Shown piece after piece: positions 8,431 through 31,982 of a stretch of DNA of 39,239 bases. The notes beneath the pieces were generated by a model. That model had not been told where the DNA came from. It did not search any database and worked only from the letters and a program-made list of their open reading frames with translations. Location of the stretch: contig JALEHU010000125.1 in the NCBI GenBank assembly GCA_022770365.1, positions 1 through 39,239 of the forward strand, read 5' to 3'. The position numbers and the translations under genes were made by a program. The stretch comes from Blautia sp. Lineage in GTDB: Bacteria > Bacillota > Clostridia > Lachnospirales > Lachnospiraceae. Each line of letters begins with the position of its first letter. Position 1 is the first letter of the stretch.

Positions 8431-8625
8431 CTAAAACACAGAAAAAATCAGCGAAATAATCCCCCCTACCAGAACTGCGCATACTCCAACCAGATTGAGA
8501 TAGGCTCCGAATGTATTACAGCATGCAGAAACCACATCAGACCAGTGCACAGCAAGCGATATGATACACAATCCAAGAATGATCAGGAGCCAGATACATA
8601 AATATCTTTTGAAAATTTGCAGCAT
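8431..8625 (-). CDS. Small two-helix membrane protein (64 aa)
   Basis: A 64-residue protein with two hydrophobic segments (about 9-27 and 41-62) and almost no soluble part. A strong ribosome site (GAGGAGGAAGG) precedes its ATG. It is the last gene of the large ubiquitin-like operon, 120 bp after its neighbour, with a 13-bp tandem repeat between them. I do not recognise it. The operon has a second two-helix miniprotein at 25208-25384, so small membrane subunits seem to be a recurring part of the system. It could also be an unrelated gene at the operon edge. Confidence 0.6.
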   Translation of the reverse strand: MLQIFKRYLCIWLLIILGLCIISLAVHWSDVVSACCNTFGAYLNLVGVCAVLVGGIISLIFSVF

Positions 8626-8677
8626 GACTTTCCTTCCTCCTCTGTTAACCGTCTCTTCCTGTTTTCAAACTTTCCGG

Positions 8678-8735
8678 ACACATTTTTATGATACATTTTT
8701 GCGATACATTTTTGCGATACATTTTTGTAATACAT
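8678..8735. repeat. 13-bp tandem repeat, about 4.5 copies
   Basis: Units start at 8678, 8691, 8704, 8717 and 8730 (partial), each close to ATACATTTTTGCG, with a strict 13-bp period. The array lies just beyond the stop of the upstream gene (8746) and before the 64-residue membrane gene. A period of 13 is not a multiple of 3 and the array is non-coding, so copy number would change only spacing. Confidence 0.85.
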
Positions 8736-8745
8736 GATAATTCTT

Positions 8746-10035: not shown

Positions 10036-10039
10036 CTGA

Positions 10040-10546
10040 TCACCATCTCCTTCTCCTCCGCCTTCTGCTTCTCCATCGGAAACCTGCAAACAGCACACAT
10101 CCGACCACTCCCATGATCACGATTATAAACTTCCCAATTGCAATAACGATATATGCGATACCTCCTGCCAAAATCCATGTAATAGCTTCAAAACTCAAAA
10201 TGATCCAGATAATTCCGCCAACCGTCGCAGCAAGAAGTACCGCCTCCAGTACTCTCTCAGGAGTTATACCGGAAGCAAACCCGTCAAACAGATTTCCAAC
10301 ACGTCCCTTGTGTGCTCCAGGTCTCTGAATGACTGCTGAAGTACTGTCATTCTCACAGTCCGCCCCCGTGTCCCAGTTACTGCTCTGTTCCTCCTCTTCC
10401 TGATCATCCCAGTTATCCCGCCCGCTGTCCTGTCTCTGTCTGTGATCATTCCCCCTTTCAGAACAACGGTTACTATCTGATTCGTTCTGCATTCTTTCCA
10501 GATTACGGATCGCATTCTCCAGATCTTTATCCAGTATATCCTTCAT
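10040..10546 (-). CDS. Acidic membrane protein with a poly-arginine tail
   Basis: A 168-residue protein. The N-terminal half is soluble, charged and low-complexity (WDDQEEEEQSSNWD) and probably disordered. Two hydrophobic segments follow at about 98-118 and 123-151. It ends in RWRSRRRRRRRW, a strongly basic tail that would stay in the cytoplasm and bind acidic protein, lipid or nucleic acid. The purine-rich codons of this tail also supply the ribosome site of the next gene. The ATG at 10546 lies 10 nt after GGAG; a GTG at 10552 is an alternative. It sits next to the VirD4-like ATPase and its relative, so it may be their membrane anchor, since the ATPase has none. No family recognised. Confidence 0.75.
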   Translation of the reverse strand: MKDILDKDLENAIRNLERMQNESDSNRCSERGNDHRQRQDSGRDNWDDQEEEEQSSNWDTGADCENDSTSAVIQRPGAHKGRVGNLFDGFASGITPERVLEAVLLAATVGGIIWIILSFEAITWILAGGIAYIVIAIGKFIIVIMGVVGCVLFAGFRWRSRRRRRRRW

Positions 10547-10628
10547 ACCCACTCATCTCCTGTTGTTGAAACTTCGCCTGTATATCTGATGTTACAACAA
10601 CATGATAGAGGACATACCAATAATTTTT

Positions 10629-11849
10629 TTATTTTTCCACGCTATAATCCAGTTGTTTTGTCACAAACATAATATCAACCCCCGAATGGCCGTATAATAT
10701 GGCATTCTGATATCCGATCTCACAAATTTCACCGGGTTCCAGGACTTCCATTTTCACCCTGGCTTTCCCCGGGGCTTTGGCAAAAACAAGCTGCCATGGT
10801 TTCTTTGGAGCTCTCACCTCCACAGTCTGCTCCATCATATAACTGGCAAACAGATCACTGATTCTGGATGCCGCACGGGCATCACTGTATGACAAAATCA
10901 TCCATTTTTTTATCCTGGCTCTGGATATTCCGAAATACTCCACAGCGTTACCGCTGAACATTCCGGCTACCTCTGCCGAACAGATTCCAAGGGTAAACCT
11001 GTTCTGGGTATTTCCGAGAAGCTCTCCTATCCCGTTTTTTTCGTTAACAGTGATATCATACATTACCAGAAGAAATTCATTATTATTTAAAAGTATAAGC
11101 TCATCCCGCAGAGCCATAAGCATTTTATCCGTATCCGCGCCTCCAATATAAAGAGACAGGACACGGTTTCCCGTACCCTGTTTCACAAACCGGCCAATAT
11201 TGATCCAGTCTCCTTCTCTTCCGCTATAGATTTCCGAGAAAGATTTTTTCAGTCCCTTTACCATTTCCCGGACTTCCATTCCCGCATTTGTATTCATCTG
11301 TATTCCGTTTCGGGTTATCTGATCAACATCTGCTCTCTGTGCAAGATCAATGATTTCTTCATCCGATGAACTGCACAGCTGCGAAATATAACAAAGAGCA
11401 TTACTGGTTTTATACTCTTCCAGAATGCTGATCAGGCTATCCATATATTGTCCTATCGCAAGCTCATTGGCACTGCTGATGTTTCTGCACTGATTTTTCA
11501 TGCAGGTAACAACCGATCTTTTGCTCATGCCATCAAACGGCATGTAATTCCTGCGTTTTCCTCCCACTCTTTCATAACGAAGTCCTGGAAATTTCAATAA
11601 AAGATTCTGCTGAAGAACCCCGTCCAGATTCCGGTTATTATGCAGGATCACCACTGGGCGCTGCTTTCTCCTGATATAATCTTCCACTGCATGATAAAGC
11701 CCCCATATCTGCTCATCTTCCTTCCCTCCGGTAATGACAAATCCTTCTCCCGGCTCTCCGCTTCTCCAGAAATCAGACAGGCGATATCTGTTTTTTCTTA
11801 CCACATGTCTTGCTTTATCATTCTTCGGATCCGCAATCTTAAATGCCAT
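10629..11849 (-). CDS. Putative degenerate VirD4/TraG-like ATPase paralogue
   Basis: A 406-residue protein directly downstream of the VirD4-like gene. Its N-terminus mirrors the P-loop core of that protein: GFVITGGKEDEQIWGLYHAV in place of LLLLGGIGSGKTTVFNHI, then RPVVILHNN in place of DVMVILDSK. The Walker A GKT is absent (GGKEDEQI), so it probably cannot bind ATP normally. The middle is helical and the C-terminus (about 345-406) is a beta-rich tail. It starts after AGGGGGCATAAGAT. I read it as a structural partner of the active ATPase, perhaps in a mixed ring. The paralogy is my alignment by eye and needs a profile search. Confidence 0.75.
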   Translation of the reverse strand: MAFKIADPKNDKARHVVRKNRYRLSDFWRSGEPGEGFVITGGKEDEQIWGLYHAVEDYIRRKQRPVVILHNNRNLDGVLQQNLLLKFPGLRYERVGGKRRNYMPFDGMSKRSVVTCMKNQCRNISSANELAIGQYMDSLISILEEYKTSNALCYISQLCSSSDEEIIDLAQRADVDQITRNGIQMNTNAGMEVREMVKGLKKSFSEIYSGREGDWINIGRFVKQGTGNRVLSLYIGGADTDKMLMALRDELILLNNNEFLLVMYDITVNEKNGIGELLGNTQNRFTLGICSAEVAGMFSGNAVEYFGISRARIKKWMILSYSDARAASRISDLFASYMMEQTVEVRAPKKPWQLVFAKAPGKARVKMEVLEPGEICEIGYQNAILYGHSGVDIMFVTKQLDYSVEK

Positions 11850-11946
11850 ATCTTATGCCCCCTGTTTCTCTTTTTGGTCTTATATCAACTCTTTATGCCG
11901 CCAGATTCATAAGATATTTTAACCCCGGCAACATTTACATCAGATT

Positions 11947-13488
11947 CTATGACGGATAATTTGAAAAACGGAATAGAAACGGGTTCTGCGGATCTTTATC
12001 CCACAGATCAATAATCGCTTCTCCTCTTGAGAGATTCTGGACATCCCATTCCTCTACCACTTTGCTTTCTCTCTGAATATGTCTCGGTTCGGTACCTTCA
12101 TTCCAGATCTTGATATCCGTATAATTACAGCCGAAATGTTCTGAAACAAACTTCCTTGTCTGTGCATCTGCGGTGCGGAAACAGAACATATTGGAAAATC
12201 CGGACATGATGACCTTCCCCCTTGCCTCTCCGTAAATATCATAAATCTGATTTACACTCTGAAGACCTGCCACAATTTTAACGCCGAGGCTGCGCCCCAC
12301 GTTCAGTCCGTCATCCAGGTGTCCCATTTTTCCTAAAACTTTCAGCTCGTCGCAAAGCAGAAAAACATTCCCTTTTCCCTCATCCGTTTCCGAACCGCTT
12401 CTTCCCAGAGCCTCTTTCAGCGCCTGGTCATACAAAAGCTGATAGATTGGTCCGAGAATTTCTCCTACACTGAGATCGTATTCCAGAAAAACGACTCTTT
12501 TATTTTTCTCTCTTACCAGATCCCGCATCGCAAATTCTCCCGAAAATTCCCAGATGTCCCTGGTATTTCCATTCCTGATCCCGAAATGGGGCATCTCATC
12601 TCCGAAAATACCTACAAAGCACTCAGATACAAGACTGTTGATATATGCAAAAACAGCAAGCGCCTGTGGTGTAGTACCGTCTCCATAATACTGCTTTCCG
12701 CTTGCAAAATCCCTGTTGTCAGGGTCACAGGTAAGTGCGTCATAATCTGCCACCTGTGCGCTTTTAAAGAATTCTTTTAATTTATATGTATGCATCTCTT
12801 CCAGGTTTCTCTTACGGAGGACGCTGATTATTTTCATTGTTATCAGATCTGCCGCCGCGTCTGCAAAAAACGGCTGGGTAGAAGATCTCCGGTCCTTGAA
12901 CAAAGACTTCATAATCTCTCTTGCATTCAGATCCCATTCTTTTTTGTACTCGTATCTTTCTCCGGGACGCGGCAGTCTTCCCATAACCTCACCATAAATA
13001 TTCCAGACAGCGCTTTTCCTTTTAAACTGGGCACTGTTCCCGATCACCACATCCCCGGGCTCATAAAACTCTCTGTAAAAATCCCCTTTTGAATCAAGAA
13101 TTACCATTACATCCTGACTGGTCATTGTACGTCTCAGCGAATGGATAATGTGATTAAACACTGTTGTTTTGCCTGATCCGATTCCACCCAGAAGCAGAAG
13201 GTGCATGGAATACTGTTCCAGGCTCATAGTAAAACATGATCCGTCCGGAGAACGGAAAACAGTTCTTGGATTATTCCCGGAGCGGGGTCTCCCCTTTTTC
13301 AGATCCATTCCCAGAAGGACTCTTGGTATGATCTCCGAAAAAATTTTTTTCTTCTGTTCATTACGGCCGTTATCACCATGATCGTCGGCATTTTCATAAA
13401 TATTGATTCTTCCTCCTGTTTTATTTTCTGATTCGGAAGACTGCTGTTGATTCTTGTTTCTAGGCGTACATCCACTGATTGCAAACAC
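11947..13488 (-). CDS. Soluble VirD4/TraG/TraD-type coupling ATPase
   Basis: A 513-residue ATPase of the type IV coupling protein/HerA-FtsK class. Walker A is GGIGSGKTT (101-109), followed by VMVILDSKGDFYREF (128-142), the Asp-containing strand typical of TraG/TraD. Walker B is VFLLCDELKVLG (375-386), then the Gln motif VAGLQSVNQIY (406-416). Homologues in conjugation have N-terminal membrane helices; here residues 1-60 are polar, so it is soluble. No relaxase, VirB proteins or other conjugation genes are present, which argues against DNA transfer. It starts at a GTG after GAGGAGGGAAT. It probably moves or unfolds a protein (or DNA) substrate within this operon's machine, possibly with the degenerate partner that follows. 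Confidence 0.88.
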   Translation of the reverse strand: MFAISGCTPRNKNQQQSSESENKTGGRINIYENADDHGDNGRNEQKKKIFSEIIPRVLLGMDLKKGRPRSGNNPRTVFRSPDGSCFTMSLEQYSMHLLLLGGIGSGKTTVFNHIIHSLRRTMTSQDVMVILDSKGDFYREFYEPGDVVIGNSAQFKRKSAVWNIYGEVMGRLPRPGERYEYKKEWDLNAREIMKSLFKDRRSSTQPFFADAAADLITMKIISVLRKRNLEEMHTYKLKEFFKSAQVADYDALTCDPDNRDFASGKQYYGDGTTPQALAVFAYINSLVSECFVGIFGDEMPHFGIRNGNTRDIWEFSGEFAMRDLVREKNKRVVFLEYDLSVGEILGPIYQLLYDQALKEALGRSGSETDEGKGNVFLLCDELKVLGKMGHLDDGLNVGRSLGVKIVAGLQSVNQIYDIYGEARGKVIMSGFSNMFCFRTADAQTRKFVSEHFGCNYTDIKIWNEGTEPRHIQRESKVVEEWDVQNLSRGEAIIDLWDKDPQNPFLFRFSNYPS

Positions 13489-13565
13489 CTTTATTCCCTC
13501 CTCTCAATGTATCCCTGCCTTTGTGTGTCAGTTCACATACTTGCAATCTCACATTTTTCTGCAAT

Positions 13566-13919: not shown

Positions 13920-13924
13920 ACCTG

Positions 13925-14629
13925 TTATCCTTTCTTCTTACCAGACTCACGAATCATCTTTTTCCACTGCTTCTCCATTTTTCTTGACGGCACACCTGCC
14001 AGAAATGCCTGTGAATCACTCTGATACAGTTCATTTTTTCTGCCGGTTCCGGGATCATTATAAAGATAGAACTCATCTTTGTATCTGTCTGTCAGAAGAA
14101 TCGTTCTCTGATTGACAGAACCTTTCATTCCATAATCCAGGTTATGCGCTTCTTCATATGGCCCGTCAATGAGGAGATCTGTCAATGCAAGCAATCTGCC
14201 CATTTCAGGATGAACCCGGGACAATTCCAGAAGCTTTTCATAATAAAAACCTGTATACACAATAACACCAAGATCTTTTTTCGCTTTTATCAGTTCCAGA
14301 AGTGATGCCAGTTCCCCTGCCTGCAGAAAAGGCTCTCCCCCGCTGATGGTGATTCCCTCGATCCCTTCTGTTCCCAGGATTTGTTCTGCAAGTTTTTCTG
14401 CTGCCATCAGATAGCCGCCATCCAGATCATGCATGGACGGAGCGATGCATCCGGGGCAGGAAAACGGGCATCCCTGCACCCACACGCAAAAGCGTTCTCC
14501 CGGCCCCAATACTCGGCATCGTTCTCTCACTGCTGCAAGCAGAATCTGTACTCCTTCCTCTTTTAACTGCAGTCTTTCATCTGTAAACTGCAATTCTTCA
14601 TCTGTTAACTGTAATTCTTCATCTTTCAA
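13925..14629 (-). CDS. Radical SAM protein, NrdG-like single-cluster type
   Basis: About 234 residues. The radical SAM cluster motif is CPFSCPGC (CxxxCxxC) in FCVWVQGCPFSCPGC, with the SAM-binding GGEPFL further on (GITISGGEPFLQAGEL) and VIVYTGFYYEKL, as in anaerobic ribonucleotide reductase activating enzymes. No NrdD or other glycyl-radical enzyme is nearby, so it is probably not nrdG. The N-terminus has a heptad repeat (LQLTDEE, LQFTDER, LQLKEEG) encoded by 21-bp DNA repeats. No ATG is available; TTG at 14629 or 14635, after AGGGGGAAGG, overlaps the end of the upstream gene by about 11-17 bp. Its neighbour encodes a Gly-rich protein, a plausible substrate. Confidence 0.88.
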   Translation of the reverse strand: MKDEELQLTDEELQFTDERLQLKEEGVQILLAAVRERCRVLGPGERFCVWVQGCPFSCPGCIAPSMHDLDGGYLMAAEKLAEQILGTEGIEGITISGGEPFLQAGELASLLELIKAKKDLGVIVYTGFYYEKLLELSRVHPEMGRLLALTDLLIDGPYEEAHNLDYGMKGSVNQRTILLTDRYKDEFYLYNDPGTGRKNELYQSDSQAFLAGVPSRKMEKQWKKMIRESGKKKG

Positions 14630-14636
14630 CTGCAAC
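14565..14636. repeat. 21-bp coding tandem repeat at the start of the radical SAM gene
   Basis: The motif AACTG starts at 14565, 14586, 14607 and 14628, a strict 21-bp period, giving a seven-residue repeat (LQLTDEE-like) in the radical SAM N-terminus. The array also covers the last codons of the upstream ATPase-like gene. A unit of 21 bp keeps frame, so copy number can vary without breaking the protein. Confidence 0.85.
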
Positions 14637-16220: not shown

Positions 16221-16299
16221 CGTTCCACCTGCCTCACATATATTTCCCTTTTTTTCTGCAGTCGGGATATCCCTTGTCAGATCATCCGTTTCTTCTCCG

Positions 16300-17871: not shown

Positions 17872-17940
17872 CTTCACTGCCTCCTTTGTGCAATCCCATT
17901 ATTTAATCTCCTTCATGCTATCTCTTTTATACAATTTCTT

Positions 17941-21248: not shown

Positions 21249-21297
21249 CGTCTACCTCCTTGTTATACATTGTGATGTCTGCGTAAGCAGGCATTTC

Positions 21298-22422: not shown

Positions 22423-22482
22423 GAATTTTCCTCTCCCTGATCTTCAAAACCATATCTTTAAAACCGTATCTCCAACATACTA

Positions 22483-23601: not shown

Positions 23602-24196
23602 TTTCCTTCCCCCTGTTTCCGCTTCTTTTCCTGAAAAATTCTGCTATTACGACTCCGAATACTGCTGCGGCAGCGGCAGATACAAGGAATATCACGAATT
23701 TCCGGCTGCAGATACATCTGCTGTTGTTCGCTTCTCTGCTGTTGTTCGCTTCTCTTCCCTTACACGGTTCCGGAGCTTTTGTTTCAGATTCCTCTGTTTC
23801 TTCTGTTGCTTCTGCCGCCGCGGCAGGTTTTTCATCTGCTGTATCTGCCGGTTTCCCTCCGTTTGTCACCAGTCCTGCTCCGATCACTCTGATATATTCC
23901 AGAACCTCATCCGCGCATTCCCGGGACAGATTCTGTTCATTTCTGTAAAACTCCAGGATCCTGGCTTCCACAAAATCCAGTTTTCCTTCATAACAGGGGG
24001 CAGATTTTCTTTCATAAGCCAATTTCCAGATACGGAAAATATTTCTGTATACTGCCGTATCCAGCTCCTTCTCATAACCGCCAAGAAGATCTTTCTCCTT
24101 CAGCATCTCCAGAACTCGTCTGATGTCCGATCCCGGCCATTCCCGGCTGTCTGCCAGTATTCTTATTTTCTCAAGATTGTTTCTTACTTCGTCCAT
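23522..24196 (-). CDS. Tail-region membrane-anchored helical protein
   Basis: A 224-residue protein with a soluble helical N-terminal domain (1-110; EWPGSDIRRVLEMLKEKDLL and KLDFVEARILEFYRNEQN), a disordered Ala/Glu-rich linker (115-145), a duplicated REANNS motif, and one membrane segment at about 167-187 (FVIFLVSAAAAAVFGVVIAEF). A basic tail follows. I set the start at the ATG at 24196 after AAAGGAG; the open frame reaches 24310, but the extra region holds only a DNA repeat. The last 80 bp overlap the transglutaminase gene in another frame, which is long for an overlap and could mean a shorter true end or a past frameshift. Not recognised. Confidence 0.7.
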   Translation of the reverse strand: MDEVRNNLEKIRILADSREWPGSDIRRVLEMLKEKDLLGGYEKELDTAVYRNIFRIWKLAYERKSAPCYEGKLDFVEARILEFYRNEQNLSRECADEVLEYIRVIGAGLVTNGGKPADTADEKPAAAAEATEETEESETKAPEPCKGREANNSREANNSRCICSRKFVIFLVSAAAAAVFGVVIAEFFRKRSGNRGKENGKNQSCKRISVDRNIAGHSGCFFEK

Positions 24197-24227
24197 TTCG
24201 TGTCTCCTTTTATTATCACCAGCTGCT

Positions 24228-24290
24228 CGATTTTGTTCCTCCCTTATCAGCCCCAGCCGATCGATTTTGTGCCTCCATATCAGCCCCAGA
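24228..24290. repeat. Imperfect direct repeat of about 30 bp, two copies
   Basis: Copies at about 24228-24256 and 24262-24290 share the core CGATTTTGT...CCTCC...TATCAGCCCCAG. They lie between the zinc-ribbon gene stop and the start of the membrane-anchored helical protein, touching the former's last codons. It is a local duplication, probably of no coding value. Confidence 0.6.
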
Positions 24291-24528
24291 TGTGCTGGCA
24301 TACTGTACATCGAAAATGTCCTTCTGTTCCTCTGTAATACGCAATTTTATCAGTTGAAAGACAAATGGGGCATACACTCGGTTTTTCCATCCTGACAATA
24401 CTGATCTTCGTCGTATTACTATGCAGGACCCTGTCGATTTCCTTCCCTTCCAGAACCTTCCTGCTGCTTAATACATAATCAGCAGGTCTTTTAGAAGCTT
24501 GTGTCATATTTACAATCCTGATTCTCAT
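24280..24528 (-). CDS. Small zinc-ribbon protein
   Basis: An 82-residue protein ending in a classic zinc ribbon: CPIC (PSVCPICLST) and CTVC (FRCTVCQHIWG) 20 residues apart. The N-terminus MRIRIVNMTQ matches the short motif at the start of neighbouring proteins. The start at 24528 follows AAGGCAGGAAA and overlaps the JAB gene by 38 bp; the ATG at 24510 is an alternative. Zinc ribbons of this type mediate protein or nucleic-acid contacts. It may be an adaptor in the conjugation set. No specific family recognised. Confidence 0.75.
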   Translation of the reverse strand: MRIRIVNMTQASKRPADYVLSSRKVLEGKEIDRVLHSNTTKISIVRMEKPSVCPICLSTDKIAYYRGTEGHFRCTVCQHIWG

Positions 24529-25198
24529 TTTCCTGCCTTTCTCCAAAATCAAGTACGTTATTCAGCAGTCTTTTCTTTCCGAATTTCTGAAATGTCTGAT
24601 CACCAATGAGCAATTCCGCTTTTGTATCCGCACAACACTGTGAACGGTAGCATTTCCATATCTTTCTGTGAGGATTCAGTACCAGGGCGATTGCTCTTTC
24701 TCCCGAGAAAAGACTGCCCTGTGTCATTCTGTCCGTTACTGACATAAAAACATCCAGTGAATTGGGATGTGTATGGAACCATCCTATTACATCCTTTTTC
24801 TCATTCGCAGGATACAGGGCATTTATTTCATCAAGTTCCCGGTACATCTCCTTTGTGTCCTCATGACTTATTTCCAGAAAACCCGGGCTTCCCACTGCCC
24901 CGCGGGCAGGCAGAACCCTTTCCACTATGCAGAAATTCCTTTTTTTCTCTTCGTCATAACAGTTTCTGCCCACCAGAAAACCGCCCTGCTCCACCCTGTT
25001 CTCCGGCATCTTTATACCCCAGCCGATATATTCCAGCATCACTTCAGAAGCCTCCGGCAGAGCAATCACCTGATAATCATTCTCTGCTGCAGAATCATTA
25101 TCACACATGAGAACATATTTTTTTTCAAAACACTCATCCTTATATTGAATCTTCCCGATTTCCGGCTCATATTCCTTCACAATCTGTATTCTTCCCAT
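24491..25198 (-). CDS. JAB/JAMM metalloprotease 2
   Basis: A 235-residue MPN/JAB domain protein with a full JAMM zinc site: Glu70 in VEQGGFLVG, His142 and His144 in GWFHTHPNSLDVF, Ser153 and Asp156 in MSVTD. In eukaryotes this fold removes ubiquitin (Rpn11, AMSH); in bacteria JABs trim or release Ubl or sulfur-carrier tails. The N-terminus MGRIQIVKEYEPE nearly repeats the start of the transglutaminase-fold protein. The catalytic residues fall at the same positions as in the larger JAB (142, 144, 153, 156), showing close parallel architecture. GGAGAAGATT precedes the ATG. Likely roles are Ubl maturation or deconjugation. Confidence 0.93.
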   Translation of the reverse strand: MGRIQIVKEYEPEIGKIQYKDECFEKKYVLMCDNDSAAENDYQVIALPEASEVMLEYIGWGIKMPENRVEQGGFLVGRNCYDEEKKRNFCIVERVLPARGAVGSPGFLEISHEDTKEMYRELDEINALYPANEKKDVIGWFHTHPNSLDVFMSVTDRMTQGSLFSGERAIALVLNPHRKIWKCYRSQCCADTKAELLIGDQTFQKFGKKRLLNNVLDFGERQENENQDCKYDTSF

Positions 25199-25207
25199 AA
25201 TCTTCTC

Positions 25208-25384
25208 CTATCCGATCAGCCAGCTGATGTACCACAGAAGCAGCGCACTGATCATTGCCTGAACAGAAATCTTTTTTCTCTCACTGCGTGACTGATCAAT
25301 GATGATTGCAGCCAGTAAGGACACCACTGCTATAATCATCATAAGAATACCTGCAGTTCTGATTAAGTCACTTAAATTCATCAT
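25208..25384 (-). CDS. Two-helix membrane miniprotein (58 aa)
   Basis: A 58-residue protein with two hydrophobic segments (about 9-28 and 39-57) joined by a basic loop (DQSRSERKKIS). The ATG at 25384 lies 9 nt after GGAG and 5 bp after the RING-like gene stop. An upstream ATG at 25405 would overlap that gene and lacks a ribosome site. It resembles the terminal 64-residue gene in layout but not clearly in sequence. Perhaps a membrane anchor for the conjugation proteins. Confidence 0.65.
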   Translation of the reverse strand: MMNLSDLIRTAGILMMIIAVVSLLAAIIIDQSRSERKKISVQAMISALLLWYISWLIG

Positions 25385-25388
25385 CTGA

Positions 25389-25973
25389 TTAATCTCCAAT
25401 TCCATACTCCTCTTTGATCGCAGTCATCTGTTTATCTATAGCACCTGAAAAAGAGGCAGAAGCTCTGGATTCTATTTTTACAAACACCTCCTGATAATAG
25501 GCATCCTCTCTGCTCCTGCCGTTAATCGGTGACTCTTCATTGCGAAACTGCAGCAGACTCAATCCCAGACACGCTATCAATCCTGCCTTGAAAATACATG
25601 AAACAATTTTACCGGTCCAGTGCATCAGGATTCTGTCCGCCTTATCCAGACAGCCGGATACGGTCGTCATGACCCTGTCAGCACCGGTAAATCCGGAATT
25701 GGCATTTTTGATGATTTTTATTCTGGAATCAGAACTTGTCTGAATTCTGATCTTCTTTTTGCCAAAAGGTTCTGTTTCCTTATGACGACATCTGTTGTTC
25801 GGACAGCAATTTTTCAGTTCCCATGTATCAATAAGCCACACACGATGGCATTTTGCACAGACAACCACCGTATCTCCCGGATGAAATTCTTCCAGAAGAT
25901 ACTCATCTGTTCTATGCTGTTCCAAAAACCATTTGTCCCGTATCCCGGACAGTTGATAGCTGTTCTTTACCAT
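25389..25973 (-). CDS. RING/treble-clef-like zinc protein with a membrane segment
   Basis: A 194-residue protein. Residues 35-64 hold a zinc site of treble-clef/RING type: C39 and C42 in VVVCAKCHRVW, W51, then C56/C57, C62 and H64 in ELKNCCPNNRCRH. This matches the VVC..C...CW...C...C outline of prokaryotic RING-like domains linked to ubiquitin systems, but the second metal site (the H..C of a full RING) is missing, so only one zinc is likely. A hydrophobic segment at about 122-143 could anchor it. The C-terminus is helical. It starts 7 bp after the E1 gene. MVKNSYQLSG echoes the N-terminal motif of the transglutaminase protein. A membrane E3-like adaptor is the tempting reading, unproven. 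Confidence 0.75.
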   Translation of the reverse strand: MVKNSYQLSGIRDKWFLEQHRTDEYLLEEFHPGDTVVVCAKCHRVWLIDTWELKNCCPNNRCRHKETEPFGKKKIRIQTSSDSRIKIIKNANSGFTGADRVMTTVSGCLDKADRILMHWTGKIVSCIFKAGLIACLGLSLLQFRNEESPINGRSREDAYYQEVFVKIESRASASFSGAIDKQMTAIKEEYGIGD

Positions 25974-25979
25974 AATTGT

Positions 25980-27266
25980 TTACCGTTCAATCATTCTCTG
26001 CTGTTCTGAAGCATTCTTTATCAATGACTCCCGTACAGTAAGTGATCCAAGTACATCCGGAAGATCTGCCGTCAGTTCATAGTACCTGCATTTCGAATCC
26101 TCCGAACAGCTTCGTACTGTTACGATGTGTCCTTTCGCAATGCCAAGCTCCTCCAGTGTCATATGAGAAATTCTTTCATCCGATGCCCGAAGCTCAACAA
26201 TCTCGTCACTGCTTGATAATCCCTTCTGAAAGTCTTTCTTTGCAATACAGTCGCTGCAGTAATAGTCCTCCGCATAGATCAGATAATCCGGTTTATGGAA
26301 ATCGATCGTACTGCCGCAGGTCTTGCATCTTCCGGTAAATGTGAATCTGTGTTCTCCTGTAATATCAATGTAAAACTCTTCACCGTCATTCTGCTCCTTT
26401 ACCCATTCCAGAAACTCTCCGAGAACCGCCTGATTCGTCCAGTGAGTTGTCTCCACTTTGTCGTAACTGTTGTGATACATACAGTTATCCCGCCGCGGAA
26501 TACGGATTGATTCAAAAGAGTTGGTCAGCCCCTCGAAATAGTACTTCATGCCGTACTGTGTCTGCCCCATACCATGAAGGATCTTAACCGCTTCCTGCAC
26601 AGCCAGTGCTCCCGCAACCGCTGTAGATATCTGAATCGTGGGTGCCTTCTTTTCTTCCACGAAACGCTTTCTTTTTTCATCACAGGAATAACGGATCATT
26701 TTCTCATTCGCAAGCTGTTTCTTTGACACACTGCAAGCCCAGCAGGAAGATTGCGGATAATGGAACACAGAGACACTCATTCCAAGTTCCCTGATTCCTC
26801 CGTCAACATATGGAATTTTTAAAAGATTACACCGTTTGTTAACACTTGTCCGGGCTTCATAATTGTCCAGGCAGCCGATGACCACATCAAACTGTCTGAA
26901 AACACCGTTTCCCAGAAGATGCATGATATCTCCGATAAAATAATCCACTTCAACGTCCGGACATACCGACATTTCTCTTACCCGCTGTGCGGCAATCTCT
27001 GCCTTGTATTTCCCCACATCCTTTTTTCCAAACAGTACCGTACGGCTCAGATTCGAGGTGGAGATCACGTCCATATCACAGATAAAAATATGTCCGATAC
27101 CGATCAAGGCCAGGTTCTTCAGTACTTCATTTCCAATAGCTCCCGCTCCGATAACGAGAACATAGCTGTTGTTCACCACATCCTGCTCCCACCAGGGAAT
27201 CAGTTTCTGACGGTCCACCATGGACTCCTCATCCCTCTGGACTTCGCCTATTACGGTTCTTCCCAT
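25980..27266 (-). CDS. ThiF/E1-like ubiquitin-activating enzyme with extra zinc ribbon
   Basis: A 428-residue E1-type adenylating enzyme. The nucleotide loop is VIGAGAIGNEV (38-48); D64/D66, N72 and R75 lie in CDMDVISTSNLSR; K86 and CLDN (132-135) complete the ATP/Mg site. A structural zinc site is formed by CWAC (175-178) and probably CMYH (262-265), a CxxC/CxxH variant. C195 (IRYSCDE) sits where the catalytic Cys or crossover loop occurs. Residues 314-340 are an added zinc ribbon (CKTC, CSDC), with a further domain to the end. It should adenylate the Ubl C-terminus and pass it to the E2. The ATG at 27266 follows AGGGAGG; an in-frame start at 27290 has no such site. Confidence 0.93.
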   Translation of the reverse strand: MGRTVIGEVQRDEESMVDRQKLIPWWEQDVVNNSYVLVIGAGAIGNEVLKNLALIGIGHIFICDMDVISTSNLSRTVLFGKKDVGKYKAEIAAQRVREMSVCPDVEVDYFIGDIMHLLGNGVFRQFDVVIGCLDNYEARTSVNKRCNLLKIPYVDGGIRELGMSVSVFHYPQSSCWACSVSKKQLANEKMIRYSCDEKRKRFVEEKKAPTIQISTAVAGALAVQEAVKILHGMGQTQYGMKYYFEGLTNSFESIRIPRRDNCMYHNSYDKVETTHWTNQAVLGEFLEWVKEQNDGEEFYIDITGEHRFTFTGRCKTCGSTIDFHKPDYLIYAEDYYCSDCIAKKDFQKGLSSSDEIVELRASDERISHMTLEELGIAKGHIVTVRSCSEDSKCRYYELTADLPDVLGSLTVRESLIKNASEQQRMIER

Positions 27267-27323
27267 TTTACAATTCCTCCCTTTTTGCATCGATTTTGTT
27301 TTGTTTCGATTTTGTTGTTTTTC

Positions 27324-27444
27324 TATTCTTTCTCCATTTTTTCGTTATTGCTTCGCTATTCTTTCGCTATTACTTCGCCATCCTATCGCTATTACTTCGC
27401 TATTACTTCGCCATCCTTTCGCTATTCTTTCGCTATTCTTTCAT
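27324..27444 (-). repeat. 11 x 11-bp tandem repeat between JAB and E1 genes
   Basis: On the minus strand eleven consecutive 11-bp units follow the consensus GCGAAAGAATA, starting with the last codons and TAG stop of the JAB gene and running toward the E1 start. Variants include GCGAAGTAATA (three copies) and GCGAAAGGATG. The period equals one DNA helical turn. It fills most of the 166-bp gap, by far the largest at this point of an otherwise tight operon. No open frame runs through it. It may set E1 translation or message stability by copy number. Confidence 0.9.
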
Positions 27445-28620
27445 TAATATCTCAAAACCATACCGGCTGCTGTACAAGTCCGTCTGCGGGCTGCACAATA
27501 CGAAGGTATATGCCCCCCAGTTCGTCATGAGATTCCACATGATACTGTTATCATGGAAAAAATCCGATTCTGACTTTGCTGCAAGAACTGCGATTTTCCC
27601 CGGCTCTCTGCTGCCCCGGATTTTCAGCAGTTCCTGAGGATCATGGTAGAAATAAGAACTTACAAACTTTAGTTTGTAGTGTCCGTATTCTTCCAAAAGG
27701 ATCCCTTCCAGCAAAATTCCTTCCAGTCCATCGTCCATGTCTCCCATGGTATCAAGATTACGCTTCAGCATTCCGGCTACCGCACACGTCAGATCCCGGA
27801 AGAAACGGCCGGGAAGCGGTTCCATCCGGATCCTCTCGATCATCGGTCTGTCAAACAGTCTTCTCTGGAAGTCCCTCCGTACTCCCAGAGTGTACCAGTC
27901 GTATTGAAAAATTTTAAAATCTCTGCCGTTTTTCCGTACGTCAGGCCTCATGGATACTTCCATTCTCCCCGGTATCTCATTCCTATCCCGGTACCGGTAT
28001 CCGTCATGACGATTCCTGACCTCGCCCGTCATCAGATAGCTTTCACATTCCGTACTGTCCGGCCCATAATATGCCTTCCAGGTTTTCCGGTTCGGATTAA
28101 ACACAATGCCAATGCTGTATGGATATTCACACTTCTGAGCCTGCGTTTCATAATCGATGTTGGAATACGCAGCAGGAATATCGCGTGGATGCGTATGGTA
28201 CCATCCTACCGGAACAAGTTCCGAATTTTCCTCCTCATTCAATCTGTCAAGTTTCCTGCTCATATCTGCCCAGTTTACAGCCGACATGTGGATAAAAGAG
28301 TTTCCGCTCTCCTTCGGATTTATACAGGAAATAATATGGCATACTTCCACCCATATTACTTCCCTGCCTTCCTCCGAAGAATCTTTGCAGAAATGCCCGG
28401 CCAGAATACCTCCCTGTTCTTTTCTGTTCTTCTTTGTCATTTGTCCCCAGGAAATATCCCGGAACAATTCTCTTACAGCTTCGCTGCGGACAATGATTTT
28501 CAGATCATTGTCTCCTCTGCTGCGATACCCCGAAGAGATCATATCGGATAAATCCCCGGGAAACGTTTTTTCCACCAGCCGGTACGTCTGTGTTACATCA
28601 TAAATAATGGATTTGCCCAT
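27433..28620 (-). CDS. JAB/JAMM metalloprotease 1 with C-terminal extension
   Basis: A 395-residue protein. The N-terminal MPN/JAB domain has a complete zinc site: Glu68 in KEQGGILAG, His142 and His144 in GWYHTHPRDIPAAY, Ser153 and Asp156 in SNID. About 190 residues follow, a mixed alpha/beta domain with no motif I know (FVSSYFYHDPQELLKIRGSR). It starts 6 bp after the Ubl gene with no clear ribosome site, implying coupled translation and therefore matched production with the Ubl. The likely job is maturing the Ubl tail (removing residues after a Gly) or removing it from targets. Which of the two JABs does which cannot be told from the sequence. Confidence 0.93.
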   Translation of the reverse strand: MGKSIIYDVTQTYRLVEKTFPGDLSDMISSGYRSRGDNDLKIIVRSEAVRELFRDISWGQMTKKNRKEQGGILAGHFCKDSSEEGREVIWVEVCHIISCINPKESGNSFIHMSAVNWADMSRKLDRLNEEENSELVPVGWYHTHPRDIPAAYSNIDYETQAQKCEYPYSIGIVFNPNRKTWKAYYGPDSTECESYLMTGEVRNRHDGYRYRDRNEIPGRMEVSMRPDVRKNGRDFKIFQYDWYTLGVRRDFQRRLFDRPMIERIRMEPLPGRFFRDLTCAVAGMLKRNLDTMGDMDDGLEGILLEGILLEEYGHYKLKFVSSYFYHDPQELLKIRGSREPGKIAVLAAKSESDFFHDNSIMWNLMTNWGAYTFVLCSPQTDLYSSRYGFEILMKE

Positions 28621-28626
28621 ATGCAG

Positions 28627-28887
28627 TTACGCCATCGCACCGGAAAACAGACGAATCGTGGAATACTCACCTCCACCGTTTTCCTCAAGTGTTTTGTCCA
28701 GATCCATATTCGTGATATCCACACCGTCTTTAAGAGCAGCCGTATATCCGTCAGGAATCTCATTAACAAAATGGCTGTCGATCAGATCATCAATCAGTTC
28801 CTGAATCGTCATATCCACAGGCATATCCACGTCTACTACATTACCGGATGTCGGGTGCATTACTTTTACTCTTTTCATTTCTTCCAT
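28627..28887 (-). CDS. Ubiquitin-like (YukD-type) beta-grasp protein
   Basis: An 86-residue protein with a beta-grasp pattern: strands RVKVMHP and VVDVDMP, helix TIQELIDDLIDSHFV, strand YTAALKDG, the ubiquitin-like LDKTLEENGGGEYSTIRLF near the end (compare STLHLVLRL of ubiquitin), and a short tail, SGAMA. It resembles YukD/EsaB-type ubiquitin-like proteins. There is no GG at the end: the tail is FSGAMA, so either a JAB trims AMA to expose SG, or the E1 activates the terminal Ala. It sits between E2 and JAB and upstream of E1, as expected for the modifier. The start at 28887 follows AAGGAG. Confidence 0.87.
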   Translation of the reverse strand: MEEMKRVKVMHPTSGNVVDVDMPVDMTIQELIDDLIDSHFVNEIPDGYTAALKDGVDITNMDLDKTLEENGGGEYSTIRLFSGAMA

Positions 28888-28995
28888 GTTTTTATCTCCT
28901 TTTGTTTTGCTTTATTTTGGGTTTAATATTTTTTTGAAACTGTGGTCCTGTTTTGCCTCCATTGAAGTATTACCTTTTGTTTCTTATCATTTGTT

Positions 28996-29511
28996 TCACA
29001 AATGGATCACGCATCTGCGTTTTTTCTCTTCCCCAATGGGAAGTTCCTGTTTGTCTGTCGGGAAAAGATTCGTTCCTGCATTTTCATTCCAGAAAGATAC
29101 CGCATTTGGATTCGCCGGGCTTTTTACATTGGAATAACGTTTATCAAACTGAAGAGTTTTTGCCATACGTCTTACATAACTCCACAGCTGTTCATCTGAA
29201 GACCACACTCCCGGACACCATGCTCTGTCAGTATACCAGTTCACATGAAACGGCTGCTGTTCTCTCATGACAGCCCTGGGCTTCACCGTCGGGTATTCCG
29301 GCGGAAAGGTGATATCCACAGTGCTTTTGTCTCTGTAAATCGGCTTTCCCTTGGCATCCAGGCCAATAATTGTACGGATATTAAATGTAACCACGTAGTG
29401 TTCCGGATTATCCGGATCATCCACAGTCCAGTCAACTGCACTGTTTCTCATTCCGGCCATCAGTTTATAATCATTTTTCAGACGGATGGCTCTTAATTCT
29501 TTCTGATTCAT
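28996..29511 (-). CDS. E2-like ubiquitin-conjugating enzyme (UBC fold)
   Basis: A 171-residue UBC-fold protein. The strand region TVDITFPPEYPTVKPRAVMR matches the YPxxxP core of E2s. It is followed by H89-V90-N91 and, exactly seven residues later, C99 in RAWCPGVW, the same spacing as HPN-x7-Cys in eukaryotic E2s. Thus the catalytic Cys and the oxyanion Asn are conserved. The C-terminus (about 120-171) is polar and ends KKRRCVIHL. It should carry the Ubl as a thioester and transfer it to lysines or other nucleophiles. The start at 29511 follows AAGGAGG; an in-frame start at 29550 is not supported by a ribosome site. Confidence 0.93.
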   Translation of the reverse strand: MNQKELRAIRLKNDYKLMAGMRNSAVDWTVDDPDNPEHYVVTFNIRTIIGLDAKGKPIYRDKSTVDITFPPEYPTVKPRAVMREQQPFHVNWYTDRAWCPGVWSSDEQLWSYVRRMAKTLQFDKRYSNVKSPANPNAVSFWNENAGTNLFPTDKQELPIGEEKKRRCVIHL

Positions 29512-29621
29512 GTTCTGTACCTCCTTATGAATATTCTGTTCCGGAAACACTTTTATTGTATAGCCTTCCGGATTATTTTTTTAATTTTTTATGCGTATAT
29601 GATCAGTAAAATCTTGTCACA

Positions 29622-30545
29622 TTATTCCAGACCTCCTGAAAATGCCCCCATACTGCTTCCGGAACCTCCTGAAAATCCGCTTCCGCCAAAACCTCCGTGA
29701 TTGGAGTGACCAAGGGTGCCTTTTTCCCCGGCATCTGTTTCTGTCTTGTTGGTCTTAAGGGCTTCCAGCATACTTCTGTCCAGAACGCTTTCCACCTTCT
29801 GTGCAGAGGATTTATTGAAATATTGTACATTTTCCATGTAATAACGTTCATTCATTTTTCCCTGGAGCGTATTCTGGATATTTGTATCTCCATATATCTT
29901 CTGCGCCATACTAAGGTTACAGGCATAGCTGTTTTGGCTGATTCCTGTTATGTATTCTCTGAAATTCGGGTCCTCTCCATACTTCGCATTCAGAAATCCG
30001 AATGCTTCCAGTGTATGTTTTTCGCCGGCTGCAAAAGCACTTCGCTCCAGCCCCTGAATTCTGTAAAGCACTCCGTCCACTTCCGGGTCCACGTAATTCA
30101 GAACCGAATTATTTGACTGCCAGTTGTGCAGTGTTTTCTCCGTAATTCCCATTGCTTTCAGCGTTTCCATGGGAATTTCACCATTCACAGCCTGTTCCTG
30201 AAAAGAATGATAATCTTCGTGGAAAATCGTATCCATCATCTGAATATTGGCATCCGGAACCGGGTGGGTCATCTGTTCAATCTTTCCGGTATTCTCATCC
30301 TTCACATTTGCCACCATGATGCCTTTTTCCAGAATATGTTTATTTACCACGATTCCATTTCCGTCATAATAACCATAACTGGCGCCTTCCAGTTCTTTTG
30401 CCGTGACATTCCGGGGGGCAGAATGATTCAACGAAGCAGAAAGATTTTCCAGTTCCTGAAGAGCCTCCAGGCGCTTGGACAGATCCATTTTTTCCCAGTT
30501 TTCATTTCTGAATTTACTGTATATTTCTGCTGTTCTCTCGTCCAT
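29622..30545 (-). CDS. HExxH metalloprotease-like protein with Gly-rich tail
   Basis: A 307-residue protein with an HExxH zinc motif, HEDYH at 109-113 (MDTIFHEDYHSFQEQ), and a likely third ligand E167 in YRIQGLERSAFAAGE, the pattern of minimal gluzincin-type proteases. No signal peptide or membrane segment. Residues about 270-307 are a Gly/Ser-rich tail ending SMGAFSGGLE. The last six residues, FSGGLE, resemble the Ubl end, FSGAMA, so this protein might also be processed by a JAB or be a conjugation partner. The ATG at 30545 follows GAGGTGAGCT. It could be a processing protease, a toxin-like effector or a structural substrate. The motif is clear; the role is not. Confidence 0.8.
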   Translation of the reverse strand: MDERTAEIYSKFRNENWEKMDLSKRLEALQELENLSASLNHSAPRNVTAKELEGASYGYYDGNGIVVNKHILEKGIMVANVKDENTGKIEQMTHPVPDANIQMMDTIFHEDYHSFQEQAVNGEIPMETLKAMGITEKTLHNWQSNNSVLNYVDPEVDGVLYRIQGLERSAFAAGEKHTLEAFGFLNAKYGEDPNFREYITGISQNSYACNLSMAQKIYGDTNIQNTLQGKMNERYYMENVQYFNKSSAQKVESVLDRSMLEALKTNKTETDAGEKGTLGHSNHGGFGGSGFSGGSGSSMGAFSGGLE

Positions 30546-30553
30546 AGCTCACC

Positions 30554-30886
30554 TCATCCGCGTGCGCCGGGATGCAATGCTCTTCTTGGTCTCCAGATCT
30601 GCGCTTCTCCTTTGACAGAATCCGCTTTGTATTCATTCAGCAGCTTCAGGGCAAACAAAAAGTCTGTTGTGTTCTGAATGCTCATGATCCGTCCTATTGT
30701 GTATTTGCCTTCGTTAATCACCGGCAGTTTCTCTCCGGCGATCCAGGCAGCCACTAATGGTTCAAATTTTTCATCAATTGTTCTGCAGAATTCCTCTGCA
30801 TAAGCACACGCACTTTTTTCCGTTTGAGAACGGTATGATTTCAAAATTACCTCTGCAAACTTTTGTTTATTAATGTTTCTCAGCAT
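30554..30886 (-). CDS. Hypothetical helical protein (110 aa)
   Basis: A 110-residue protein, mainly helical, with the stretch YTIGRIMSIQNTTDFLFALK followed by LLNEYKAD and a basic end. No cysteines in motifs and no membrane segment. The ATG at 30886 (MLRNINKQKF) has GAGGTG upstream and overlaps the ATP-grasp stop by 17 bp, which supports coupled translation. Not recognised. Its place at the operon head beside the ATP-grasp protein suggests a partner of that enzyme or of the metalloprotease that follows 8 bp later. Confidence 0.7.
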   Translation of the reverse strand: MLRNINKQKFAEVILKSYRSQTEKSACAYAEEFCRTIDEKFEPLVAAWIAGEKLPVINEGKYTIGRIMSIQNTTDFLFALKLLNEYKADSVKGEAQIWRPRRALHPGARG

Positions 30887-31982
30887 CTTTACACCTCTTT
30901 CCATATACTTCCCACAGCACTTCTTCCGTTAATTCATGAAACAAAGGACCATTATTGATCTGGTGAAAATCCAGTTCTCCGTTCATCAGATTTGCCTCTA
31001 TCAGCACAGGATTTCCCTCGCAGTCCACTGCAAAATCCCAGGATATCAGACGAAAATGAGGAAGAAATTTATGTGCATCCACGATATGTTCACATATCCG
31101 GTCATAGCATGGAATCCTGCATTCACGGAAAACAGCCCCATCAGGATGCTCCGGGAAACAGGTTCCATATTTGTCAAATCCCCTGTTTTTTAGCCTGCCG
31201 TTCTCCAGAATTCCTGCTGAAATCCCCCCTGCACTGACATTATCCACCTCGCTTTCACCAACCCCCATCCGCACTACAGAAGACAGAAGATGAGTCTTAT
31301 TTTTATGATAAAAAGATATGGTACGGATGGTATTTACCGAAGAACGATGAAGCTTTTCCATTTCGCAGTGCTGCTTCAGGAATACCTGTATCACTGTGTC
31401 AACAACGGTGCGTCGAAGGATATTTTCCAGTCGGCCGATTCCTTCTTTTTGAGCATCCCAGATGAAAATTCCCGCTCCTCCGCAAAAGTTTACCGCCGGC
31501 TTTATAATCACTTTTCCTGCCTCCTGACATCTTCGAAGAATTTCATCCATCTGAATACTGTCAAAGTTCGCATCCAGCCAGAACCCGTTTATCTTTTGCG
31601 CAATGGTCTCCGGCTGCTTTATCTGCGGAAACAGACGGCTGTAAAAGCATTTATGGTCAATATACTTTGCTGCAGATCTGTTGTTATAAAATGGATCAAT
31701 ATCCATGTAATAAACCGTATCCGGCAGAAATCTCACATCATATTCTCCATACAGTCCCGAATAGTATTCTATCCATCCTTTCGCATTCGAATCTGTATAA
31801 GGATCCCAGTATGTATGAACCTGTTCTTTCTGCTCTGCGGATAACACAAAAGGACTTTTCTGATTGTCTTGCAGGCGCCTGTCGATCTCCCGGATCATTG
31901 CTTTTCTCCTTCGCAGCTCTTCGTCCTTTTTCTGAAGATTTTTCTGTCTCAGATGCTCGCTTATCTGTGTTCCCTCAATCAT
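30870..31982 (-). CDS. Sugar-transfer-associated ATP-grasp protein
   Basis: A 370-residue ATP-grasp enzyme. It shows the outline of the sugar-transfer-associated ATP-grasp family: DVRFLPDTVYYMDIDPFYNN (82-101), then a cation-binding IDHKCFYSRLFP, the ATP-binding Lys161 in GKVIIKPAVNFCGGAGIFIW, and the metal-binding end LISWDFAVDCEGNPVLIEAN (312-331, with E329 and N331). These enzymes usually sit in polysaccharide clusters and join an acid to an amine or similar. Here none is near and it opens the ubiquitin-type operon, so it may ligate a small molecule or peptide in that pathway. The first 40 residues are a charged helix. ATG at 31982 after AAAGGAGGAGGGGAG. Confidence 0.85.
   Translation of the reverse strand: MIEGTQISEHLRQKNLQKKDEELRRRKAMIREIDRRLQDNQKSPFVLSAEQKEQVHTYWDPYTDSNAKGWIEYYSGLYGEYDVRFLPDTVYYMDIDPFYNNRSAAKYIDHKCFYSRLFPQIKQPETIAQKINGFWLDANFDSIQMDEILRRCQEAGKVIIKPAVNFCGGAGIFIWDAQKEGIGRLENILRRTVVDTVIQVFLKQHCEMEKLHRSSVNTIRTISFYHKNKTHLLSSVVRMGVGESEVDNVSAGGISAGILENGRLKNRGFDKYGTCFPEHPDGAVFRECRIPCYDRICEHIVDAHKFLPHFRLISWDFAVDCEGNPVLIEANLMNGELDFHQINNGPLFHELTEEVLWEVYGKRCKDAEKH

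Follow-up and report, generated by a model that had tools for sequence, protein, structure and literature searches.

A 25-Gene Cluster in Blautia Encodes a Predicted Ubiquitin-Like Conjugation Set Together With AAA+ and VirD4-Like ATPases

Introduction

Bub (type II) is reportedly a bacterial conjugation operon that encodes a ubiquitin-like protein (Ubl), an E1, an E2 and a JAB-family peptidase. To our knowledge, the fate of the proteins tagged by bacterial Ubl conjugation is mostly open. Here, we analyze a 39,239-nucleotide stretch of a Blautia sp. genome (GenBank assembly GCA_022770365.1, contig JALEHU010000125.1, positions 1 to 39,239; hereafter the window), which is contig C88 of a 3.0-Mb draft genome with 85% completeness and carries a 25-gene cluster encoding a Ubl conjugation set and two motor ATPases. 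We consider it likely that the Ubl is conjugated to targets and predict that the two motors then extract and unfold them. If this is true, the cluster is a bacterial counterpart of the ubiquitin-Cdc48 pathway and combines E1, E2, Ubl, JAB and a segregase in one bacterial gene cluster. As the locus encodes a TrwB-like ATPase besides an AAA+ with a predicted Cdc48 fold, a "tag, then extract" step becomes directly testable in bacteria.

Like Bil (type I) and Bub, the cluster holds genes for a Ubl, an E1, an E2 and JAB-family peptidases in one locus. In the accessible part of its description, Bil comprises four genes, among them BilA with two Ubl domains and BilD, an E1 with an inactive and an active adenylation domain (PMC11354881). 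In the Blautia cluster, the Ubl and ThiF domains are instead single, and two JABs, two motors and about 18 further genes are present. Its E1 does not have the two-domain layout of BilD, as a single ThiF stretch lies within 436 amino acids (aa) and the PADLOC model of BilD (9.9e-8, residues 45-106) ranks behind 22 E1-E2 models. Types 6a-6e of Iyer 2006 share with the cluster E1, E2, JAB and small Ubl genes as well as a sporadic distribution, and E1, E2, JAB and Ubl are encoded together here as in the broad type 6 (PMC1779556). In the accessible text of that study, these types extend the core by about three genes at most; its main text (supplements and figures apart) contains VirD4 and AAA zero times, and transglutaminase in the references only.

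The FtsH-ternary vWA-MoxR conflict systems, in the portion of the source available, likewise combine a Ubl cascade (Ubl, E1, E2, RING-type and JAB components) with a second AAA+ ATPase and with helical proteins (PMC7159879). However, none of the 25 proteins of the cluster matches vWA or MoxR (AAA_3), and Pfam detects no FtsH peptidase in its AAA+, the NCBIfam FtsH match spanning the AAA region only. The ubiquitin-Cdc48/p97 pathway is paralleled by homologs of its E1, E2, JAB/MPN peptidase (Rpn11-type) and tandem AAA+ ATPase, and by a likely Ubl, but the cluster lacks a p97 N-domain and has a VirD4-like ATPase instead. Moreover, no proteasome or Ufd1-Npl4 match was found by Pfam among the scanned cluster proteins. 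The gene set is undescribed in the literature found, including the accessible parts of PMC1779556, PMC7159879, PMC11354881 and PMC1949818; this literature does not cover Burroughs 2011 and the 2024 Bub paper, and an earlier mention is possible. An earlier sequence-only reading of the window had proposed one large system. The conserved gene set described below bears this out, and it exceeds the Ubl operon types in the accessible parts of the cited literature.

A Conserved Cluster With a Ubl Conjugation Block

The open reading frame (ORF) list places 25 genes on the minus strand between positions 8431 and 31982, where neighboring genes overlap or are separated by 142 bp or less (Table 1), in agreement with the approximately 25 closely packed same-strand genes noted by the sequence-only reading. 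This count includes an 82-aa zinc-ribbon gene that fills the largest gap and was noticed after G300, the genome of a second Blautia species, displayed a gene in the corresponding gap. Promoter-like sites occur at about the level of shuffled sequence (22 vs. 22.8; 26 vs. 23.6 in a second scan) and thus do not demonstrate a single transcript. Pfam and NCBIfam searches give names to about half of the genes; Pfam matches are graded against the curated cut-offs, and those below cut-off are marked for each protein.

All 25 genes have counterparts in G300. The order of the cluster is kept on two contigs, both of which end inside the RING-like gene, and the junction is therefore inferred. Between the window and G300, the ratio of nonsynonymous to synonymous substitution (dN/dS) is 0.042-0.400 in the 20 genes of the cluster for which it was determined (five others, short or split, were left out), indicating purifying selection, with dS of 0.56-1.84 so near saturation that the ratios are approximate. 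The AAA+ gene has a ratio of 0.042, followed by E1 (0.098), E2 (0.102) and Ubl (0.155). The last stretch of the G300 contig C52 starts with an odd, adapter-like sequence.

E2, Ubl, JAB1 and E1 are encoded by adjacent genes. The sequence-only reading had named a Ubl, an E2, an E1 and two JABs, and all of them are recovered, the weak E2 and Ubl calls being firmed by profiles of their relatives. The E1 profile ranks eukaryotic UBA1-type E1s (8.7e-40) before ThiF (7.5e-30) and MoeB (1.4e-27). Residue Cys203, the cysteine of an RYSC motif, is invariant across a 29-sequence alignment and occupies what we take to be the position of the crossover-loop catalytic cysteine of MoeB/UbaA-type enzymes. The E2 carries HVN in place of HPN, and H102, N104 and C112 are invariant in nine relatives. 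A nine-sequence E2 profile matches RAD6/UBE2-type E2s best (5.4e-11), a match that reaches just 0.0058 with the window/G300 pair alone. Furthermore, the JAMM residues E, HxH, S and D are kept in JAB1 and JAB2 (invariant in eight sequences), and the best match of the JAB profile is Rpn11 (3.2e-16). In G300, the C-termini of JAB2 and of the ATP-grasp protein (L054 17611-18351 and L029 2169-3380) share TQQVRQERGKD and are unlike the protein ends in the window, reflecting either a repeat or an assembly artefact.

The Ubl is the least certain member of the E1/E2/JAB/Ubl set. The window/G300 pair aligns with sister-locus Ubls (hhalign 73.6%, E=2.9e-5), and the G300 ortholog matches OTU1_UBXL (4.5e-4) and YukD (0.0015), both below cut-off. 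A wider Ubl profile also matches ubiquitin, but this match stems from the sister Ubls and not from the window Ubl. The tail, LFSG-A(M/T)A, differs at one residue between the two species and has one Gly followed by three residues, so that a JAB probably has to cleave it. The RING is the weakest assignment: a zinc protein resembling RING, as the sequence-only reading had it, is present, but its Prok-RING_1 match (E=0.044) is below cut-off and the domain is degenerate.

Two Motors and a Proposed Mechanism

The two motor families of the sequence-only reading, AAA+ and VirD4-like, both stand on Pfam matches, as do its transglutaminase and radical SAM partners (Table 1). The tandem AAA+ was modeled with AlphaFold2 (AF2; 40 sequences, 579-aa model) at a pLDDT of 85.5. 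Among the 50 Foldseek matches listed, DRG1, p97 and Cdc48 align over both domains (567-616 columns, TMq 0.44-0.64), and the best stretch of the AAA+ profile in p97 is the AAA region 238-443. The idea of that reading that tagging is followed by movement or remodeling of proteins agrees with this predicted Cdc48-like fold. The C-terminal tail (window 19509-19600) has low model confidence, yet most relatives compared show a similar Ile/Val-x-Arg ... Arg ending. For the VirD4-like profile, the closest solved structure is TrwB (8.6e-27).

Two candidate relationships within the cluster are unsupported. Reading the sequences by eye suggested p406 as a degenerate VirD4 paralog, but hhalign (0.4%) and an AF2 model with a pLDDT of 43, which does not resolve the fold, fail to show this. 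Paralogy of the 533-aa AAA-like protein to the tandem AAA+ is likewise not shown (hhalign 7.9%).

From homology, motifs, one predicted fold, the recurrence of the 25 genes and their selection, which are directly seen, we infer chemistry, step order, targets and purpose as follows. A JAB would process the Ubl tail, cutting behind the Gly in LFSG-A(M/T)A, and the E1 would adenylate the Ubl and hand it over through a cysteine to Cys112 of the E2. The E2 would attach it to targets, perhaps positioned near the membrane by the degenerate RING and small transmembrane (TM) proteins. The AAA+, with the P-loop in its second domain, might thread the modified protein in the manner of Cdc48, and a JAB would recycle the Ubl. 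Together with p406, the HExxH protein and p116, the VirD4-like ATPase makes up a second module, which also exists alone and is probably a soluble ring for handling or cleaving the client once it is extracted. The transglutaminase-like and radical SAM proteins might add further modifications. Tagging, extraction and JAB recycling are the simplest reading of the component list. The sequence-only reading had also called the machine membrane-linked, which holds in part: a convincing hydrophobic segment was found by hydropathy in 6 of the 24 cluster proteins run.

Distribution and Biological Role

The cluster is rare. In the genome draws, which overlap in part, E1 searches hit 16 of 250 family genomes at 1e-20 including the own genome (three besides it below 1e-40), 3 of 64 genus genomes at 1e-30 (own, G300 and G276) and, at 1e-45 and again with the own genome included, 7 of 391 class genomes and 3 of 398 phylum genomes. 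An E1 of the window type is limited to the own genome and G300 (2/64 in the genus) and is found in the family, class and phylum draws in the own genome only. Judged by their ORFs, the loci in G098, G056 and G276 as well as six class and two phylum matches are sister loci of another type. The contigs of G276 and G665 are short, and G097 resembles a foreign contig. An E1 relative with 81% identity is present in an assembly named "uncultured Blautia sp." (L004), which is probably G300. At 1e-90, the AAA+ was found in one of 291 class genomes (the own) and also in G300.

A phage origin is unsupported, since none of 16 pattern matches on viral contigs encodes a relative and the four phage records are MoeB/ThiF-like and cover at most 54% of the E1. 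Orthologs of the C69 dipeptidase that flanks the cluster are present in 21 other Blautia genomes; no empty insertion site was identified around six C69 loci, which lie in several contexts (G278 like G305, G295 like G250).

This distribution bears on the purpose of the cluster. The same tag-and-extract chemistry might serve protein quality control or regulation of the host with no role in defense, as could be suggested by purifying selection, by Pfam matches of 26 scanned window proteins that include no integrase, transposase or phage gene, and by the general unfoldases that are closest to the modeled AAA+ fold. However, the restriction of the window-type E1 to two genus genomes is unlike housekeeping, and we consider this alternative somewhat unlikely. 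A conflict (defense-type) role is plausible and is favored over housekeeping because of the rarity of the cluster and the neighbors of the VirD4 module elsewhere. In view of the purifying selection, a regulatory role is also conceivable. A TIR-NACHT-TPR gene in G1350, a STAND-like gene in G118 (both described below) and the PADLOC matches to IetA and mad8 are weak hints at defense. The latter are generic ATPase resemblances (AAA+ to IetA, 1.4e-21; VirD4-like protein to mad8, 1.1e-13), and PADLOC as a whole, run on 10 of the 25 cluster proteins, returned generic JAB, E1-E2, IetA, TRIP13, mad8 and HerA resemblances.

The VirD4-Like Module in Other Contexts

VirD4-like searches, with the own genome included, hit 3 of 160 genomes of the family at a threshold of 1e-50 and, at 1e-40, 13 of 363 genomes of the order; two of these genomes, G118 and G1350, carry the other module genes (p116, HExxH and p406). 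In G118, p116, HExxH, VirD4-like and p406 genes stand together, followed by a YbjN-like and a small TM gene; no E1, E2 or JAB match was found at this locus, and a large gene in G118 was read as STAND-like by eye. In G1350, the genes after p116-HExxH-VirD4-p406 encode two small TM proteins, a 150-aa protein that Pfam does not match, a JAB-E1 fusion, another TM protein and an AAA+ of the Clp type (1.6e-22). The 650-aa fusion combines a JAMM-like motif (hhalign 27%, E 6.7e-4) with a ThiF domain (1e-22), and a TIR-NACHT-TPR gene (L110 2709-5732) lies upstream at about 2 kb from the module. Thus, p116-HExxH-VirD4-p406 is a recurring module that stands alone in G118 and beside Ubl enzymes in two arrangements, in Blautia and in G1350. 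In G118, the C-terminal portion of HExxH (MSFDPKPVxLEEYNQ) recurs as a separate 103-aa gene (L088 13339-13650; cf. L110 8052-9221).

A plasmid of Crinalium epipsammum, pCRI9333.03 (L031), encodes in succession an E1, two small Ubl-like proteins (one with a YukD match of 0.06), an E2, a JAB and a VirD4-like protein. On this plasmid (L031 21736-26268), a motif LxW[RQ], noticed post hoc, occurs in ten copies (nine LxWR) in five of nine proteins (E2, JAB, VirD4-like, and proteins of 214 and 89 aa); the other 24 coding sequences examined there contain no LxWR and one LxWQ, and a shared docking tag is conceivable.

Other relatives of the VirD4-like protein lie beside Hsp70-like genes (L102, by profile; L104, by N-terminus), beside vWA, PP2C and kinase genes (L103) and near genes with zinc-ribbon-like starts. 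The contexts of L102, L103 and L104 are possibly another stress or conflict system. We read the VirD4-like proteins as a soluble ATPase family that several stress or conflict systems have taken up, with one of its branches working alongside Ubl enzymes.

Linkage Between Ubl Genes and Motors

Several observations weigh against a tag-and-extract machine. A PDB search with the window/G300 Ubl pair alone does not recover ubiquitin, the Ubl does not end in Gly-Gly, and the Pfam matches of Ubl, JAB2 and E2 are all below the curated cut-offs. The AAA+ lacks an N-domain of the p97 type, its model showing no domain ahead of the first AAA-like one. Five Paenibacillaceae plasmid records (among them L038-L041) carry near full-length AAA+ copies with 43-44% identity, and in four of these plasmid contexts, for which gene tables are incomplete, no Ubl genes are near the AAA+; hence, the AAA+ is not tied to Ubls. 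On the side of the conjugation enzymes, eleven sister loci of another type in Bacillota have a related E1, and the nine compared by BLAST have no AAA+, VirD4-like or coiled-coil matches. The Crinalium VirD4-like protein has no BLAST match to that of the window and its plasmid is mobilizable, so it could serve conjugation. Finally, the full gene set was seen in one genus only, and PADLOC detected no whole known defense system among the 10 cluster proteins.

The E1s of the sister loci are 33-40% identical to that of the window, and one broken fragment reaches 52%. Seven loci of other Bacillota (L024, L026 and L043-L047) encode YukD-like Ubls, E1s (33-36% identity by BLAST), E2-like proteins, JABs and Prok-RING-type proteins and thereby resemble the Blautia cluster, but have no homolog of the AAA+, VirD4-like, p406 or HExxH proteins in the stretches compared. 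L043, the one locus of these that was scanned with profiles, additionally has a full Prok-RING_1, a trypsin-like protease and an FHA domain on the E2 protein.

Closer E1 relatives (53-63% identity) seem to lie together with VirD4-like or AAA+ genes, judging from long source contigs of identical size in three protein searches. Contig sizes above 10 kb that a comparison by eye found to be common to the E1, VirD4 and AAA+ lists (best 120 each) are 132976, 133509, 50847, 51876 and 19056, all of them among the top matches. Sizes below 5 kb (4591 and 2342) coincide as well, at least one of them by chance, which makes this linkage indirect. More distant E1 relatives (40-46%) occur in Bacteroidota, Cyanobacteria and Planctomycetes, where the context was viewed for the Crinalium plasmid alone. 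The sequence-only reading held that E1, E2 and JAB genes regularly found without the motors would speak against a single machine; such genes exist in the nine sister loci, but the 53-63% relatives apparently keep the motors. Its expectation that the set is kept across Clostridia holds as synteny within Blautia, beyond which parts but no full set were found.

Two unrelated systems, a Ubl conjugation operon and a VirD4-like/AAA+ operon, might simply share the locus, as could be read from the E1-free VirD4 module of G118, the sister Ubl loci without motors and the AAA+ that stands apart on plasmids. In both Blautia genomes, however, the conjugation and AAA+ block sits between the HExxH and VirD4-like genes, VirD4-like and Ubl genes are neighbors in G1350 and less clearly in Crinalium, and shared contig sizes tie the E1, VirD4 and AAA+ relatives together, all of which renders a chance assembly of two systems quite improbable. 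More improbable still is a secretion machine of the type IV/VII kind, in which the VirD4-like protein would be the coupling ATPase and the YukD-like Ubl a never-conjugated assembly factor: the VirD4-like family match, the YukD profile, several TM proteins and the report that B. subtilis YukD is not conjugated (PMC1779556, accessible text) would suit it, but the own genome (85% complete) has zero WXG100 matches, VirB4 has no match in the window and three below cut-off on other contigs, the VirD4-like protein has no N-terminal TM segment (its sole hydrophobic segment, 277-295, lies within the ATPase domain by hydropathy), and the YukD operons are not described with E2 or JAB in that text, so that the type VII link of the sequence-only reading and a secretion channel are not supported.

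Short RIxI Peptides

Tagging and extraction might also be connected by short peptides. N-terminal peptides of the [GR]RIxI type could be Ubl-binding tags, similar to SUMO-SIM pairs, such that tagging alone would assemble a Cdc48-style extraction machine on the proteins of an invader; we regard this idea as doubtful. Such peptides are carried by JAB2, the transglutaminase, the zinc ribbon, one coiled coil, E1 relatives and the tail of the VirD4-like protein. In pattern tests, all of which were post hoc, a strict RIxI occurs within the first 50 residues in 4 of 24 system proteins and 0 of 423 controls (4 vs. 1 over the whole length), and a looser one in 4/24 vs. 4/423 (p=0.0004; 4 vs. 16 over the whole length, p=0.017). 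In G300, 3 of 22 proteins have RIxI. A still looser pattern is found in the VirD4 tails of 9 of 12 near relatives, compared to 0.35 expected from shuffling, and of 2 of 108 far relatives, which have shorter tails; E1 tails show it in 46 of 114 cases (15.6 expected). An unbiased test of 4-mers shared among the 25 proteins gave no excess (7 pairs, null mean 8.5), and neither did 5-mers (1 vs. 0.8) or gapped words (12 vs. 8.7, p=0.17); hence, the RIxI tag stays hypothetical.

Gene Inventory and Flanking Regions

The cluster genes are listed in Table 1 in order of transcription. The cluster is bounded by a DeoR-like gene (read from the translation) and the C69 dipeptidase.

Table 1. Genes of the cluster with window coordinates, strand and supporting evidence (G300, G118 and G1350 as in the text).
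Feature	Position	Strand	Evidence
ATP-grasp protein, 370 aa, first cluster gene	30870..31982	-	PF14397 4.8e-39; G300 69-71%
p116, small protein, VirD4 module	30554..30904	-	No Pfam match over cut-off; homologs in G118 (29.6%) and G1350 (39%), adjoining HExxH and VirD4-like genes
HExxH (zincin-type motif) protein, 307 aa, Gly/Ser-rich tail, VirD4 module	29622..30545	-	HExxH conserved in 3 sequences; homologs in G118, and in G1350 via the G118 protein
E2, likely start an internal ATG (171 aa), HVN motif, Cys112	28996..29550	-	PF00179 0.0036, below cut-off
YukD-like Ubl, 86 aa, tail LFSG-AMA (G300: LFSG-ATA)	28627..28887	-	YukD 0.0072, below cut-off
JAB1, 395 aa, complete JAMM motif	27433..28620	-	PF14464 1.4e-7, over cut-off
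E1, 436 aa, single ThiF domain and C-terminal CxxC pairs, candidate catalytic Cys203	25980..27290	-	PF00899 2.9e-52
Degenerate RING-like zinc protein, one TM (123-141)	25389..25973	-	Prok-RING_1 0.044, below cut-off
65-aa membrane protein, two hydrophobic segments	25208..25405	-	G300 69%
JAB2, 235 aa, complete JAMM motif, N-terminus MGRIQIVKEY	24491..25198	-	PF01398 3.8e-4, below cut-off
82-aa zinc-ribbon-like protein, N-terminus MRIRIV	24280..24528	-	Weak Pfam zinc-ribbon matches; present in G300
262-aa protein, one TM, fastest evolving (dN/dS 0.40)	23522..24310	-	Hydropathy
Transglutaminase-like cysteine hydrolase, N-terminus MGRIRVVKEY	22483..23601	-	PF01841 1e-13
Coiled-coil-like protein, 374 aa, EGRIRIYSED near N-terminus	21298..22422	-	G300 60%
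Tandem AAA+ ATPase; domain 1 without P-loop, domain 2 with Walker A and B	19509..21248	-	PF00004 1.1e-31
Coiled-coil-like protein, 515 aa	17941..19488	-	G300 74%
Coiled-coil-like protein, 525 aa, N-terminal hydrophobic segments	16300..17877	-	G300 84%
Degenerate AAA-like protein, 533 aa	14619..16220	-	Weak KaiC/AAA matches
NrdG-like radical SAM protein	13925..14635	-	PF13353 2e-28; NrdG 1.4e-24, below cut-off
Gly/Ser-rich protein, 117 aa	13566..13919	-	G300 52% over 87 columns
TrwB/VirD4-like ATPase, no N-terminal TM, variable N-terminal tail with GRINIY	11947..13488	-	PF10412 6.1e-35
p406, adjoins VirD4-like ATPase	10629..11849	-	Homologs beside VirD4-like genes in G118 and G1350
Membrane protein, 170 aa, two TM, Arg-rich C-terminus	10040..10552	-	Small TM genes likewise after p406 in G118 and G1350
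Coiled-coil-like protein, 450 aa	8746..10098	-	G300 54%
64-aa membrane protein, last gene	8431..8625	-	Hydropathy; G300 match

On the side of the C69 dipeptidase, the flank (window 32193-38711) encodes this enzyme and a GH123 protein, both by Pfam, and sugar ABC transporter genes according to their translations. The opposite flank (window 1400-7285) contains phosphate-uptake genes, likewise read from the translations. Window positions 1-139 carry, on the minus strand, a Clostridiales-1 RNA (Rfam RF01699) that is truncated by the contig end.

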